NCBI GenBank assembly: GCA_947486405.1
Contig: CANKTL010000005.1
Span: 1-34,045 of the forward strand
Direction of reading: 5' to 3'
DNA: 34,045 nucleotides
Source: a bacterium
GTDB taxonomy: Bacteria > Margulisbacteria > Marinamargulisbacteria > CANKTL01
In this document: in pieces, positions 13,764 through 33,166 of the stretch
Position numbering within the stretch: position 1 is the first letter of the stretch
Layout: every line of letters starts with the position of its first letter
Program-made: the position numbers and the translations under genes
Notes under the pieces: generated by a model
The model's database searches: none
The model's input: only the letters and a program-made list of their open reading frames with translations
What the model was told of the DNA's origin: nothing

Positions 13764-13792
13764 TTGTCTTTAATTGATGATATCGATATAAT
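13764..13792 (+). promoter_or_regulatory. Strong putative sigma70-type promoter of the sugar-uptake operon
   Basis: TTGTCT-N17-TATAAT directly after the MFS stop; then a leader of about 43 nt with SD AAGGAG before the ATG at 13842. Confidence 0.65.
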
Positions 13793-13841: not shown

Positions 13842-15230
13842 ATGATTGAAAAAAATTCAAAGTTTATACAGGTTGGGCTTGCCCTTGCCGCATTTTCGAT
13901 GCTCAGCGGCTCACAAGCCTTTGCAAAGCGCTTGGATCAGGCAGCAGCAGCCCCTGCAGCAGGGAGCGCAAAAAACGTTAAAGTTATTCGGATGTGGGTT
14001 ATGCCTAATTCTCCCCGTCCTGTTAAAGACCTCGAAAAGTTATTAAAAGGGTTTGAGAAAACTCATCCCGGAATCAAGGTTGAAGTGACTTCAGTAGATT
14101 GGGGTGCGGCGTTAACCAAGCTCACAACTGCGGCTATTTCAAAACAGGCGCCGGATATTGCACAGTTAGGAACCACCTGGGTTGGCGTTATTTCAGCGAC
14201 CAATGCACTTGAGGATCTAACACCACGGGCAAAAGCAATGAATGCGTCGCAAATATTTTTACCGGCCTCCTGGTCGACCGCTGGATTGCAGGGCTCTAAT
14301 AAAGTCACCTCTATTCCGTGGTTTGTAGATGCCCGCGCGCTGTATTTTCGCACAGACGTTTTTCGTAAATTGAAGCTGACCAAGGCCGATGTGGATGATT
14401 GGGCAAAATTTGAAGCGACTTTAAAGAAAATTAAAGACGCGAAGTTGGTAATCAACGGTGTCGAAATTGAACCATTGGGCGTGCCCGGTAAAAATGACTG
14501 GAACGTGCTACATAACGTAGCGCCCTGGATTTGGGCTTCTGGTGGCGATTTTATTTCTCCAGATTTGAAAACTGCGGCGTTTACCACACCAGCCAGCAAA
14601 GAGGGTGTGAAATTTTTTATCGGCCTGGCTGCAAAGGGATACATTCCTCGTAGTAGCTTAGAGCTGAATACGGCTCAGGTTGCGGCTAAATTTAACGAGG
14701 GTGACTACGCGATGTATTTCGATACACCTGCTCAAATTAAACTTTTGGAAACTCCTTATGAAAAAGGCGGTGCCGGCGGGTCGTTGACTGCGCAAAATTA
14801 TGATGTTGCGCTGTACCCCAAGGGGCCTAAAGGTCGGTTTACCTTCTTTGGTGGATCTAACCTCGCCATTTTCAAGTCCTCAAAAAATAAAGATGAGGCA
14901 TGGCAGGTTATTCAATATCTGACTTCAAAAGAAGCTCAGTTGTCATATGCAGAAACCACCGGCTTTATTCCGGCACGAAAAGATTGTTTTGAAGATCCTT
15001 ACTTCACGAAAGATCCGAAACGAAAAATCTTTACTGAGGCTATTAAATATGGTCGAACATATCCAACGATTTCAGCGTGGGGGCCGGTTGAGCCTATCCT
15101 AATGCGGCACATCGGTATTATTTGGGATAATGCGGCCGGTGTGTATGGTAAATATTCCCCGAAAATTGTGGACTCGCAATTGGAAAAGACCCGAAAAGAA
15201 GTTAATACCCTGTTGAAAGATAGCCGATAG
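13842..15230 (+). CDS. Carbohydrate ABC transporter substrate-binding protein (family 1), periplasmic
   Basis: Type I signal peptide (no lipobox Cys), LLKGFEKTHPGIKVEVTSVDWGAALTKLTTAAISKQAPDIAQLGTTWVG, NEGDYAMYFDTPAQIKLL. Confidence 0.93.
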   Translation: MIEKNSKFIQVGLALAAFSMLSGSQAFAKRLDQAAAAPAAGSAKNVKVIRMWVMPNSPRPVKDLEKLLKGFEKTHPGIKVEVTSVDWGAALTKLTTAAISKQAPDIAQLGTTWVGVISATNALEDLTPRAKAMNASQIFLPASWSTAGLQGSNKVTSIPWFVDARALYFRTDVFRKLKLTKADVDDWAKFEATLKKIKDAKLVINGVEIEPLGVPGKNDWNVLHNVAPWIWASGGDFISPDLKTAAFTTPASKEGVKFFIGLAAKGYIPRSSLELNTAQVAAKFNEGDYAMYFDTPAQIKLLETPYEKGGAGGSLTAQNYDVALYPKGPKGRFTFFGGSNLAIFKSSKNKDEAWQVIQYLTSKEAQLSYAETTGFIPARKDCFEDPYFTKDPKRKIFTEAIKYGRTYPTISAWGPVEPILMRHIGIIWDNAAGVYGKYSPKIVDSQLEKTRKEVNTLLKDSR

Positions 15231-15233
15231 CTG

Positions 15234-16178
15234 ATGGCAACCGTTTCATTAAAAACACGAGTCTATAAGAATCGTCACGCGTACTACTTCATTTTACCAA
15301 CGCTCTTGGGGATGTTGTTAATCCATTTTGTGCCGATGGTGCAGGCGGTATACATGTCGTTTTTAGGCCTCAATCAAAATACGATTGGGTTGTATTTGGC
15401 CGCGCCTTTTGTTGGGTTCGAACATTACAAGGACATCTTATTTAATCCGGATAGCTTGATTCGAATATCAGGCTTGTCCGAGGCGGCGCGAAACACGTTT
15501 ATTTATACGATAGTCGTTACTTTTGGGACCATTTTTGTGGGTCTGATTGTGGCTTTAATGCTTAATCGTAAATTTAAAGGTGTTGCTGTTTTTCGGACCT
15601 TGTTTATTCTCTCGTGGGTGGTGCCTCAATATGTTACCGGCTTGCTTTGGAATTTTATGTGGCAGCGAGACGTAGGAATCGTGAATTATATTTTGGTAAA
15701 CGTCACGGGATTGCTTAACGAGAAGCCTTTTTGGTTGATCGGACCCAACACGCTTTGGGCGATTATCATTCCAACGATTTGGCGCGGCTGGCCGTTCAAT
15801 ATGATTATGTTGTTAGCAGGCCTTCAAAATATTCCTGAAACCTATTATGACGCTGCCAAAATCGACGGTGCGTCCACATTGCAGCAATTCCGATATATTA
15901 CTTGGCCGCTATTGAAGCCAGTGTGGGCAATCCTGATCTTCTTTGGCCTAATCTTTAATGTGTACTCATTTAACATCGTCTATATGATGTTTGGTCTTGG
16001 TGCCGGGTATCCTGGCGAGTGGGGCGACTTGTTGATGACCAATATCTTTAGAGCGACGTTTTCAGCTTGGCGTTACGGTGCGGGTGCAGCAGCCTGTGTT
16101 ATTTTGATGATTTTGATGATTACCATTGTCTTAATTTGGGATCGAATATTCCAAGATGAAATTACGGTGCAAAAATGA
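15234..16178 (+). CDS. Carbohydrate ABC transporter permease, MalF type (CUT1)
   Basis: Six-TM pattern and EAA loop YYDAAKIDGASTLQQFRYITWPLLKP. Confidence 0.94.
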   Translation: MATVSLKTRVYKNRHAYYFILPTLLGMLLIHFVPMVQAVYMSFLGLNQNTIGLYLAAPFVGFEHYKDILFNPDSLIRISGLSEAARNTFIYTIVVTFGTIFVGLIVALMLNRKFKGVAVFRTLFILSWVVPQYVTGLLWNFMWQRDVGIVNYILVNVTGLLNEKPFWLIGPNTLWAIIIPTIWRGWPFNMIMLLAGLQNIPETYYDAAKIDGASTLQQFRYITWPLLKPVWAILIFFGLIFNVYSFNIVYMMFGLGAGYPGEWGDLLMTNIFRATFSAWRYGAGAAACVILMILMITIVLIWDRIFQDEITVQK

Positions 16179-17980
16179 AATCCAATAAAGTTAGAAAAGT
16201 TGTTAAGCGTGTAGTAATAGACTTTTTCATGGTGGGGGCGCTCATCACTACGTTATTCCCCATTTTTTGGATGGTATTTACCTCTTTAAAAAGCAACAAT
16301 GATATTTTGGTGGGGCATATGGGTTTTACTCGGAAGGCCAACTCGATTTCGACTATTGTGAAGGCGGGTGACAAAATACATTTTGGGTCGGAAGATGGAT
16401 TTATTGGCCAGGTCAATTCAGATAACACTATCAAGTCTATTTTCGATGTTCGCAAATATCGGGGAATGAGCGCGGTTCAAAAGGATGGTAATATTCTTTT
16501 TTCCCATTCCTACGGCGTTTCCTCAATCGACCCGTTTACAGACAAGCAAAAATTGTTAGTGGATTATGAGAATGTGCCATGGAAGTATCGCCACAATATC
16601 CGATCAACCAAAATTGTGAGTGTGAATGGTAAATTTTATGTGGGCAAAGTGCTGGTAAAAACAGAATCTGAAGAAGAGACTAGCTATAAGGGTGCCGAGG
16701 GGTTTGAGGGACTGCAAGTATTTAATGAAAGCATGCGCGCCATTGGCTCTTTAGACACGGCCGACAACTTATTGTCGACCACGATTTATGACATGCAATC
16801 AGATGGCCAGTATCTTTGGATTGCCCAACCTGGTGGTGTTAGCGTGTTGGATCCAGCGACAGACAAAGTTATTGCCCAATATACAGAAGAAGATGGATTA
16901 ACGGTTGAGTCCATTAAGTCCATTTCAATCGTGGGCAAGCTTGTATATGTAGCGGGCTTGAATAAAGTGTTTAAGATTGATTTTGAGGCGGATAAGGTAA
17001 CGGCACTGTTGCTGCCTCCTGTAATTCCACAAATCAACGCGATTGTTGCTGATTCTGAAAATGTATTTATTGGATCATCGAATGGATTTTACGTTTTTGA
17101 TCTTAAAAATGATCAAATACTTACCAAGTATCGAGATCAGGACGTGTATTGGAATATCCGATCAATGCGTATTGATGGCAATGATATTTGGATTGGTACC
17201 GATAACGGTACCGTTATAAAATTGGATAAATCGGATGATTATCAAGTGGGCTTTCGGGCACAAATTCGAACTGGAGCCTATGATATCCGGTGGGAAAATT
17301 ACCTGGATATGTGGGAAAATATTTCCTTCGGTACCTATCTGAAAAATTCGATTCTGATTTGTTCGATTACTGTTCTTTTTTCATTGGCCCTTTCAACAAT
17401 GGCGGGTTATGCATTGTCCCGGTTCCGTTTTCCGGGGTCGGTATTGTTTTCAACCTCAATTTTGTCGGTCAACATGATTCCGATGCTGTTGTTTTTAATT
17501 CCTGTATATTTAATGTTTATTAAAATCTATGATGTAACGGGTATTCAATTTATCGGAACATATGCGGGAATTGTATTTGTTTATTCTACCTTTTTCGTTC
17601 CGATGAGTATTTGGATCTTGCGATCATTTTTTGTGTCCATTCCAATTGATATAGAAGAAGCGGCCCGAATCGATGGCTGTTCGCGGTGGGGCGTATTTTG
17701 GCGAATTGCGCTTCCGTTGGCGGCGCCGGGCATTATTGCAACTGGTATCTATTTGTTCTTAGTGGCGTGGGATGAGTTGATGTTTGCGACGATTTTGTTG
17801 CCGCAAGAAAACTCGTTCACAATTCCACTTGGAATTAAATTGTTTATAGGTAACCACCAGAACCGATTCGACTTGATAATGGCGGCCTCAACTGTGGCCA
17901 CCTTACCAGTGTTGATTTTGTTTTTCTTGGTCCAAAAATGGTTTATCAAGGGATTAACTGCAGGCGCTGTAAAGGGATAA
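16175..17980 (+). CDS. Carbohydrate ABC transporter permease, MalG type, with a large extracytoplasmic beta-propeller-like insertion
   Basis: TM1 DFFMVGALITTLFPIFWMVFTSLK, then about 320 residues of WD/Reg_prop-like repeats, then NYLDMWENISFGTYLKNSILIC and a normal MalG core with EAA loop IEEAARIDGCSRWGVFWRIALPLAAP. ATGA overlap with the MalF gene. Confidence 0.93.
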   Translation: MKSNKVRKVVKRVVIDFFMVGALITTLFPIFWMVFTSLKSNNDILVGHMGFTRKANSISTIVKAGDKIHFGSEDGFIGQVNSDNTIKSIFDVRKYRGMSAVQKDGNILFSHSYGVSSIDPFTDKQKLLVDYENVPWKYRHNIRSTKIVSVNGKFYVGKVLVKTESEEETSYKGAEGFEGLQVFNESMRAIGSLDTADNLLSTTIYDMQSDGQYLWIAQPGGVSVLDPATDKVIAQYTEEDGLTVESIKSISIVGKLVYVAGLNKVFKIDFEADKVTALLLPPVIPQINAIVADSENVFIGSSNGFYVFDLKNDQILTKYRDQDVYWNIRSMRIDGNDIWIGTDNGTVIKLDKSDDYQVGFRAQIRTGAYDIRWENYLDMWENISFGTYLKNSILICSITVLFSLALSTMAGYALSRFRFPGSVLFSTSILSVNMIPMLLFLIPVYLMFIKIYDVTGIQFIGTYAGIVFVYSTFFVPMSIWILRSFFVSIPIDIEEAARIDGCSRWGVFWRIALPLAAPGIIATGIYLFLVAWDELMFATILLPQENSFTIPLGIKLFIGNHQNRFDLIMAASTVATLPVLILFFLVQKWFIKGLTAGAVKG

Positions 17981-18003
17981 CAATGAGAAAGGCAGGAAAT
18001 AAT

Positions 18004-19647
18004 ATGAAATTAAATAAATGGTTAGTATTAGGATTGGTCTGTGCAATGGCGATCGGAGTAGGGGCCTGCGCGGCAAAAAAAGAAGAAGAAGTGAAATCTC
18101 ACACGGTTTACTTTGGATTGTTTCGTGAAGGCGCGCCCGCCAAAATGTATAAAATCCAGGACTTCGAAAAAGAATATGGCCGTAAACCTCAAATGATTAT
18201 GTGGTACTTGGACTGGAGTCAGCCGTTTCCAGCTCAAAACGCAAAAAACGTTATTGACTATGGATCGGTGCCGGTTGTGATTTGGGAACCATGGATTTGG
18301 GGCGATGAACAAGCCATTAAGCTTCAAAATATTGCTGACGGCGAATGGGATACCTACATCAACGCTTGGGCCAAAGGTGTAAAAGACTTTAAATACCCCA
18401 TTTTTATTCGGTTTGCGCACGAGTTTAATATCGAAGGATATCCGTGGTGTATCGTGAACAACAATCAAGATTATGAGCTATACATTGAAGTATTCCAAAA
18501 GGTAGTAAAAATGTTTCGGGCAGCAGGTGCGAATAACGCTTTGTTTGTTTGGAACCCAATGAATTATTCATATCCAACTGAATCATGGAACGACTATCTA
18601 AAAGCCTATCCAGGTGATGAATATGTCGATTGGATCGGCATTGACGGATATAATTGGGGAACTGCCCAAACGTGGAGCGATTGGCAAACATTTGAACAAG
18701 TGTTTGTAGAGCCGGTTCGAATCCTATCTACCAATTTCCCCAACAAGCCGATTATGTTGGCTGAGTTTGGAACCGCAATTGATGGTGGTGACAAAGCACA
18801 GTGGTTTGCTGAAATACCGGCCTATCTTCAATCTACAATGAAAAATGTACACGCTATCTTGTACTTTGACATTAAAAAAGAAACAGATTGGCGTATTAAC
18901 AGCACCCCAGAATCTCAAGCTGCATTCAAAAAGATTATGGCTAATCCCGTATTCGACGCGAGTGTCGATGATATACCGACCCTAAAGGTCAATAACTTAA
19001 CCGCCCTTGAGAAAAAATCGGTGGATATTAAAAAAGCCAAGTCGGCGCCTACCATCGATGGTGACTTGGGCGAATGGGGTAAGGCTGAAGCCTATGTCGT
19101 AAAAGGGTTTGACCGCATTACTTCCGGAGCACCTAAATGGACCGGTGACAAAGACCTTTCTTCGGAAGGCAAGTTTATGTATGACTCTGATAACTTCTAT
19201 ATCGCAATCAAAGTAACCGACGATAAGCCATTTAAGGTTAACAAGAAAGATGCGGATATTTGGAACGCCGATGCAGTGGAAATTGCGATGTCGACGGACT
19301 CAACATTGGATCCTAAACGAAACCGTTATCTTCGAAACGATTTTCAAATCGGAATATCTCCTGGAGACAATGGAAGCGCGCCGATGGTATGGAGCTGGCA
19401 GTTACAAAGTCAGATTTCAGGCGCGAAAGTGGCCACCAAAAAAACAAGCGATGGCTATATTTTAGAGGTATCAATCCCGTGGTCTGGGTTACGCACGGTA
19501 GCGCCTAAATCCGGCCAAACCGTTGGCTTCACGTTTGCGATCGATGATGCTGATGATGCCGATGACCGTGAAACTCAGCAAGTCTATAGTGGAGATAACC
19601 TCTTCTATAAAGATCCATCTGTGTGGGGAACTGCGACGTATAAATAA
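18004..19647 (+). CDS. Lipoprotein with GH26-like glycosidase domain and C-terminal CBM9-like sugar-binding domain
   Basis: Lipobox VGAC; FIRFAHEFN (candidate acid/base Glu), LFVWNPMN, DWIGIDGYNWG, IMLAEFGTA (candidate nucleophile Glu); C-terminal APTIDGDLGEWGKAEAYVV...MYDSDNFYIAIKVTDD...ADAVEIAMS. The track start is 17938; ATG at 18004 precedes a clean lipoprotein signal. Confidence 0.85.
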   Translation: MKLNKWLVLGLVCAMAIGVGACAAKKEEEVKSHTVYFGLFREGAPAKMYKIQDFEKEYGRKPQMIMWYLDWSQPFPAQNAKNVIDYGSVPVVIWEPWIWGDEQAIKLQNIADGEWDTYINAWAKGVKDFKYPIFIRFAHEFNIEGYPWCIVNNNQDYELYIEVFQKVVKMFRAAGANNALFVWNPMNYSYPTESWNDYLKAYPGDEYVDWIGIDGYNWGTAQTWSDWQTFEQVFVEPVRILSTNFPNKPIMLAEFGTAIDGGDKAQWFAEIPAYLQSTMKNVHAILYFDIKKETDWRINSTPESQAAFKKIMANPVFDASVDDIPTLKVNNLTALEKKSVDIKKAKSAPTIDGDLGEWGKAEAYVVKGFDRITSGAPKWTGDKDLSSEGKFMYDSDNFYIAIKVTDDKPFKVNKKDADIWNADAVEIAMSTDSTLDPKRNRYLRNDFQIGISPGDNGSAPMVWSWQLQSQISGAKVATKKTSDGYILEVSIPWSGLRTVAPKSGQTVGFTFAIDDADDADDRETQQVYSGDNLFYKDPSVWGTATYK

Positions 19648-19649
19648 AC

Positions 19650-20423
19650 GTGTCGACGCGGGGACTGCTGTCATTTTTGGTAATCGTTGGGTTGGGAGTA
19701 ATATTACTCCCAACCTCCTTTTTTGCGGCATCCAAAAGAGATATTATTTTCCCCTTTGTTTTAGATCGCTTTGAAGATGGTGACATTCGCTACAATCCTG
19801 AATGGTTTACATTTGGAAATTTAGCGGTGACTGCTGTTCCTGCTGTGCCGGAAAATGAGAAAGCCCCGAAGAAACACGTTTCGTGGTGGGCTGCGACTAT
19901 CAGCTGGATAAAGGAGTCCCAGCGGCCGAAGGCATTCGCGCCTTCATCGGTGTTGGTTGTTGACCCAGTCAACGGACGCTATGTACTCAAGATGGAAGGC
20001 CTGGGTAAAGATTGGTTTGTGGGCGGCGTTGGTACGTATCTGGGCATCACTGCGGACAACTTTTCGTTTTTTTACCTTCGAATTCGGGGATTTGGTCCGC
20101 AATCGGGTCGGCTTCAAATCGAATTGTTTGATGATGACAATCAAAACTTTAAATTAGAACAGAATGCAAAATCACATTATGAGCCTATGTTTGATGATAA
20201 ATTTGTCTATTTGATTGATGTGACCTGGGCCGGCTGGAAAGACGTTTTAATTCCATTGAATCGATTTAGAGACATGAATTCATCAGTAGGAAACAACGTC
20301 ATGGACTTTAACCAAAATGGCGCGTCCGGGGGTCTGTTGCAAGTTCAGTTGGTGGGTTTAACTCCCGATGGCAAGCCAATTGGCCGATTCTCGGTAGAGG
20401 TGGATTCCATAGAGTTTCGTTAA
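19650..20423 (+). CDS. Secreted CBM11/galactose-binding-like protein
   Basis: GTG start 2 nt after the upstream stop; signal peptide LLSFLVIVGLGVILLPTSFFAAS; VLDRFEDGDIRYNPEWFTFGN resembles CBM11-type N-termini; C-terminal beta-rich GRFSVEVDSIEFR. Confidence 0.65.
   Translation: MSTRGLLSFLVIVGLGVILLPTSFFAASKRDIIFPFVLDRFEDGDIRYNPEWFTFGNLAVTAVPAVPENEKAPKKHVSWWAATISWIKESQRPKAFAPSSVLVVDPVNGRYVLKMEGLGKDWFVGGVGTYLGITADNFSFFYLRIRGFGPQSGRLQIELFDDDNQNFKLEQNAKSHYEPMFDDKFVYLIDVTWAGWKDVLIPLNRFRDMNSSVGNNVMDFNQNGASGGLLQVQLVGLTPDGKPIGRFSVEVDSIEFR
19690..19724 (+). terminator. Intrinsic-terminator-like hairpin with T-run, lying inside the coding region of 19650..20423
   Basis: Perfect palindrome GGTTGGGAGTAATATTACTCCCAACC (19690-19715), then TCC and TTTTTT (19719-19724). 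Confidence 0.65.
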
Positions 20424-20504: not shown

Positions 20505-20702
20505 CTAGGGCTGAGAGGCCCTCTCTTCGATCCAGATGCGGATTAACTTTTGGTATGGGATTTCCTCTTGTGCGGCGATCGCCTTGATTCGATGGATTAA
20601 ATCTTCATCCAGTCTAATGGATATCAAACGTTTCGCTTTCTTCTTCTTTGATTGTTTTGAATCGTTACCTCCTGTTAGGTAAACTTGAATTGCTTTAGCC
20701 AT
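20505..20702 (-). CDS. Ribbon-helix-helix (CopG/BrnA-like) DNA-binding protein
   Basis: ISIRLDEDLIHRIKAIAAQEEIPYQKLIRIWIEERASQP; overlaps the 3' end of pth by 8 nt. Confidence 0.75.
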   Translation of the reverse strand: MAKAIQVYLTGGNDSKQSKKKKAKRLISIRLDEDLIHRIKAIAAQEEIPYQKLIRIWIEERASQP

Positions 20703-33117: not shown

Positions 33118-33166
33118 AAAATAGGCCAGATGCGCAATTTCTCGTCCCGCGCAGCTGGCCTATTTT
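33118..33166 (-). terminator. Putative terminator hairpin downstream of the 33166..34044 gene
   Basis: AAAATAGGCCAG (33118-33129) / CTGGCCTATTTT (33155-33166), extended by TGCGC/GCGCA (33131-33135 / 33149-33153) after one mismatch. Confidence 0.65.

Follow-up and report, generated by a model that had tools for sequence, protein, structure and literature searches.

A terminator-like hairpin within the signal-peptide codons of a CBM11-like gene, behind the ABC importer and GH26 genes of one operon

Background

The locus described here raises the question of what a hairpin with the features of a Rho-independent terminator does within the first codons of a gene for a secreted protein: it may end the transcripts of the genes lying upstream, it may be kept from folding by ribosomes translating those same codons, as a first-pass annotation of the sequence had suggested, or it may do neither. 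The locus lies in a window of 34,045 nucleotides (the whole stretch of DNA analysed) from an uncultured Margulisbacteria-like bacterium, whose genome of 0.98 Mb is 67% complete. The relevant features, by position, are the following.

13764-13792: promoter-like site, upstream of the ABC importer genes
13842..17980, + strand: ABC sugar importer (solute-binding protein, permease, permease with an inserted beta-propeller), start of the transcription unit
17938..19647, + strand: GH26 + CBM9 protein, final gene ahead of the hairpin, stop TAA at 19645-19647
19645..19652, + strand: TAA-AC-GTG, GH26 stop and next start 2 nt apart, no Shine-Dalgarno before the GTG
19650..20423, + strand: downstream ORF, 257 aa, Sec-type signal peptide and CBM11-like beta-sandwich, codons 14-25 overlapping the terminator
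19690-19715, + strand: perfect 26-bp palindrome GGTTGGGAGTAATATTACTCCCAACC, RNA stem with a 4-nt loop
19716-19724, + strand: UCC spacer, then U6 run, TCCTTTTTT (TCC TTTTTT), one-directional

Results

The hairpin and its tail

The palindrome and the T6 run behind TCC are present exactly as first annotated. At the RNA level the stem consists of 11 Watson-Crick pairs, or 12 with the flanking G-U pair 19689/19716, six of them G-C, closed by a loop of 4 nt: it is a stable, GC-containing stem of at least 5 pairs with a short loop, as expected of a terminator. The surrounding 101-nt region folds with an energy of -34.7 kcal/mol (z -3.8), a value reached by none of 200 shuffled sequences, and no T-run was found on the opposite strand of the hairpin. 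Between the GH26 stop and the stem lie 42 nt, and the stem begins 40 nt into the next ORF, counted from its GTG.

The first-pass annotation had called the site a textbook terminator following the GH26 stop. A terminator-type hairpin is indeed found there, but "textbook" is too strong, as the U6 run is 3 nt off the stem: the d'Aubenton-Carafa formula (cut-off 0) gives it a provisional score of -8.8 or, with the other choice of stem end, -21.5, and the negative value is due to the UCC separating stem from U6. Termination is thus expected to be partial, and may be weak.

Comparison with chance

Two null models were used. In the first, the encoded peptide was kept fixed and synonymous codons were drawn according to the genome's own usage, derived from a 203 kb sample with a G+C content of 0.48; only 8 of 20,000 such codings fold as stably as the native hairpin region, which shows that the hairpin is not a by-product of the peptide. 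In the second, codons were shuffled within the ORFs of this genome, and stems of at least 12 pairs followed by at least 6 T out of 7 were counted: 8 were found in 44.6 Mb (about 0.2 per Mb), so that about 0.006 T-tailed long stems are expected in coding sequence of the window's length, even before requiring a position just after a stop codon. The hairpin is a real feature, neither a chance product nor an echo of the encoded peptide. Causation could equally run the other way, an existing terminator having been captured by the ORF.

Within ORFs, long stems lacking T-tails are about as frequent as in shuffled sequences. This agrees with a reading in which the hairpin has no terminating function, being a chance or neutral structure in a fast-evolving signal peptide, which most polymerases read through; the negative provisional score, the unconserved sequence and length of the signal peptide, and the lack of the stem in relatives point the same way. 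It would, however, require a 12-pair stem and a T6 tail to coincide by chance just past the last stop of the ABC/GH26 genes, which is very unlikely, and we consider this reading rather unlikely.

The coding side: signal peptide and CBM11-like domain

The GTG at 19650 is the first usable start of the downstream ORF, the reading frame being closed upstream by a stop at 19641-19643. A start behind the hairpin was considered and rejected: the next in-frame ATG, GTG or TTG is the GTG of codon 60, downstream of the conserved motif FEDG...EW (residues 41-52), and its use would leave the protein without a signal peptide. As there is no usable in-frame start between the stem and codon 60, the stem falls in translated sequence, if the product is secreted like those of its relatives. 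Residues 1 to about 27, MSTRGLLSFLVIVGLGVILLPTSFFAAS, form a plausible Sec-type signal peptide, as judged by eye; the initial proposals of a GTG start with a signal peptide, and of a terminator hairpin placed within its codons (codons 14-25), are supported. The residues assigned to the stem needed a partial correction: it does lie within signal-peptide codons, but the palindrome itself encodes GLGVILLPT, while SFF belongs to the tail.

No Pfam match was found for the downstream protein alone; CBM_11 is matched by 14 of the 15 aligned members of its family. The predicted structure (mean pLDDT 73, low in the signal-peptide region) features a helix at residues 6-18 and a beta-sandwich from residue 36, and its best match among solved structures is the CBM11 of Clostridium thermocellum Lic26A-Cel5E. 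The signal peptide thus precedes the stem and the mature domain follows it. The product is a secreted CBM11-like protein. Among family members the signal peptide is conserved neither in sequence nor in length.

No Shine-Dalgarno sequence was found upstream of the GTG at 19650. Such sequences are in use in this genome: at least 4 matched bases are found at 57 of the 130 best starts, compared to 8% of internal ATGs, a gap somewhat inflated by the different ways in which the two sets of starts were chosen.

Operon context and termination in this genome

ABC importer, GH26 and CBM11-like genes all run in one direction, and the hairpin lies between genes of a single ABC-importer transcription unit. 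It is not found in an intergenic region after the solute-binding-protein gene, since it follows GH26 and overlaps the next ORF. A search between the hairpin and the body of the CBM11-like gene revealed no promoter-like site; the gene accordingly appears to depend on read-through, in support of what had been proposed from the sequence.

Two neighbouring genes deserve mention in their own right. In the MalG-like permease (16175-17980; PF00528 at residues 407-593), the first transmembrane segment is followed by a beta-propeller-like insertion of ~300 aa, with weak PorZ, Reg_prop and PQQ matches, which is an odd architecture for an importer subunit. On the minus strand, a small CopG/RHH antitoxin-like ORF (20505-20702; PF12441, E 7e-10) shares 8 nt with the 3' end of pth; no toxin gene was seen beside it.

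Clear intrinsic terminators are very rare in this genome, only two being recognized by strict criteria in the 203 kb sample, which contains many operon ends. The sole other clear U-tailed long stem in the sample is intergenic (L147, 15370-15409) and has a provisional score of 13.1 to 51.6 by the same formula; on account of this second terminator, intrinsic termination is probably in use in this genome. The genome also encodes Rho, and this, together with the paucity of clear cases, indicates that intrinsic termination may be a minor route. A looser scan, admitting imperfect stems, returned 443 hits and was uninformative. Elsewhere in the window, a near-perfect 18-bp inverted repeat (94%; 33118-33166, with ends AAAATAGGCC) lies between minus-strand genes and is possibly a two-way terminator.

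The presence of Rho and the length and stability of the stem would also suit a hairpin chiefly shielding ABC-GH26 mRNA against exonucleases at its 3' end, the end itself being made downstream by Rho or by processing. Such a role would not need a U6 run placed for release, and is in any case compatible with termination; as the main function it is very improbable.

A repeat element or a DNA operator was rejected: the 18-bp core of the palindrome is present in a single copy in the 0.98-Mb genome, in a search allowing up to 3 mismatches. Sugar operons often have palindromic operators, and perfect dyad symmetry would suit a site that acts as DNA, not as RNA, and is bound by a sugar-operon regulator; yet no second copy is found within 3 mismatches, the region upstream of the operon included, the palindrome is unusually long for an operator, and the one-sided T6 run would be left unexplained. 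This reading is barely credible.

Comparison with relatives

The order GH26-CBM9 followed by a CBM11-like gene is kept in 16 relatives, one of which (G063) was counted by eye, its contig ending there; the named relatives are Margulisbacteria (WOR-1, Saganbacteria). No U-tailed hairpin is found at the GH26/CBM11-like junction in 15 of the 16 relatives with that gene order, and in nearly all of these 15 the next gene begins no more than about 60 nt on, usually preceded by a strong, AGGAGG-like Shine-Dalgarno (by eye). In the remaining relative (G068), an intergenic intrinsic terminator is located at stop+32, near the distance seen in the window; its provisional score ranges from 27.2 for the core stem down to -5.8 for the most extended one. 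A promoter-like TTGACC-18-TATATT lies downstream of this terminator, and such a succession suggests that in the G068 lineage the second gene has probably been separated from the operon. Distant GH26 genes with no CBM11-like neighbour (L083, L084, L085) are followed by strong hairpins, at stop+14 to stop+74. Taken with the G068 terminator, these place the window hairpin at the usual GH26 operon-end position.

None of the relatives compared shares the stem itself. Lack of conservation had been indicated in the first-pass annotation as evidence against its proposal, and the result goes in that direction; it carries little weight, since these relatives are at class or phylum level only, and thus says little about selection in this lineage. 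Scanning named genomes for the downstream protein revealed no close relatives, nor did a viral scan, and whole-genome searches gave nearest relatives no closer than the same class.

Other arrangements were noted 3' of GH26. In G002 (L044/L069) two CBM11-like copies lie in succession, the first anchored in the membrane and overlapping the end of GH26, the second secreted; the pair is a local duplication within the family. In G067 (L046), where the contig ends after GH26, no CBM11-like gene is seen behind it, and two further hairpins are present, one of which, located at the contig end, is the perfect palindrome ATCAACAGAATTAATTCTGTTGAT.

Discussion

Hairpin and U-run probably constitute a partial Rho-independent terminator, which ends most ABC-importer/GH26 transcripts and lets a fixed fraction of polymerases through to the CBM11-like gene. 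We infer that, in vivo, polymerases would mostly be released at the U-run, setting the 3' end of the ABC-importer/GH26 transcripts, while the CBM11-like gene, ancestrally co-transcribed with GH26, would receive only those reading through; its translation would be weak, probably by re-initiation at the GTG 2 nt past the GH26 stop, and the read-through fraction would be set chiefly by the hairpin and its imperfect U-tract, ribosomes having a minor role. The terminator reading is weakened by the 3-nt gap between stem and U-run, by the negative score, and by the lack of any relative sharing the stem.

Both halves of this proposal have experimental precedents. Terminators do work when placed in the first 100 bp of an ORF (PMC4824070), and terminators within ABC-importer operons have been shown to set expression ratios (PMC9045158). 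In the latter study, on cellulolytic Clostridia, stem-loops with variable U-tracts in sugar ABC-importer clusters, similar to the one described here, let part of the polymerases through and so set how much the flanking genes are expressed relative to each other, with measured termination of 20.7-96.1%. The Clostridia terminators are, however, intergenic and located after solute-binding-protein genes, whereas the putative terminator in the window lies downstream of GH26 and within the following coding sequence.

Whether ribosomes on the early codons could prevent hairpin formation, as initially proposed, may be judged from a closely similar geometry. In E. coli, lambda tR2 terminates maximally when it lies more than ~27-30 nt behind a stop codon, where the terminating ribosome no longer reaches the stem (PMC4824070); with its stem 42 nt past the stop, the window site lies beyond that reach, and ribosomes terminating on GH26 should not interfere. 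In construct W48 of the same study (lambda tR2 and the start of ninA), the terminator follows the stop by 48 nt and lies 30 nt into a second ORF, which is translated, compared to 42 and 40 nt here; translation of that ORF lowers termination by only ~10%, because the leading ribosome has still to catch up with the polymerase. In W48, an experimental arrangement in E. coli, the terminator is strong and the ribosome-binding site genuine, while the window features an imperfect U-tract and no visible Shine-Dalgarno. The proposal is poorly supported.

A translation-controlled attenuator would work by a ribosome, starting at the GTG or re-initiating after GH26, covering the 5' arm of the stem, so that CBM11-like expression tracks translation. 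The 2-nt spacing between stop and start permits re-initiation, and the entire stem is translated if the GTG is the start. The principle works in constructs such as the Terminator Operon Reporter, based on the in-frame terminators of Wright and Hayward, which are switched off by ribosomes (PMC4879669), and in the pil1 leader of Streptococcus gallolyticus, where a translating ribosome can disturb the folding of a stem-loop terminator (PMC3894217). The reporter shares with our site in-frame placement within a coding sequence, but there the ribosome has translated a whole gene and is close behind the polymerase, whereas the window stem starts after only 13 codons; the leader peptide of pil1, with its variable repeats, and its separate downstream gene have no counterpart here.

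Gene purine content (50.6%), in a genome encoding Rho, resembles that of species in which transcription and translation are predicted to be coupled, since lack of purine excess together with Rho goes with coupled rather than runaway transcription (PMC13323073). Coupling is thus generally plausible in this genome, which does not rescue ribosome control at codon 13. Over such short distances, ribosome control needs polymerase pausing, as in pyrBI. The leader peptide, pause site or antiterminator pairing typical of trp, pyrBI and pil1 attenuators was not found, and the RNA preceding the stem folds leaving the 5' arm unpaired. Ribosomes starting at a GTG lacking a Shine-Dalgarno would come late and seldom. 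Rfam searches gave only sub-threshold matches, mostly on the opposite strand, and the stem is missing in relatives. A ribosome switch is possible and is not favoured: attenuation of this kind is quite unlikely, and it is more doubtful still that re-initiating ribosomes of the upstream gene decide, at an intrinsic terminator within the signal-peptide codons of the second cistron, the transcription of its secreted partner. Fixed partial read-through is the simpler explanation. Were ribosome control true, the site would be a minimal attenuator with no leader peptide.

Transcripts ending at the U-run would contain a GTG-started ORF with no stop codon, on which re-initiating ribosomes would end in rescue; the absence of a Shine-Dalgarno may limit this cost.

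The hairpin is an ordinary device, found in an unusual place. It illustrates cleanly, in a natural sequence, how an RNA element can shape the codons that contain it: a terminator is accommodated in the hydrophobic core of a signal peptide, the U-run spelling Phe-Phe. By acquiring a terminator, an operon can demote the gene at its end, whether the terminator lies within that gene, as in the window, or ahead of it and together with a new promoter, as in G068.
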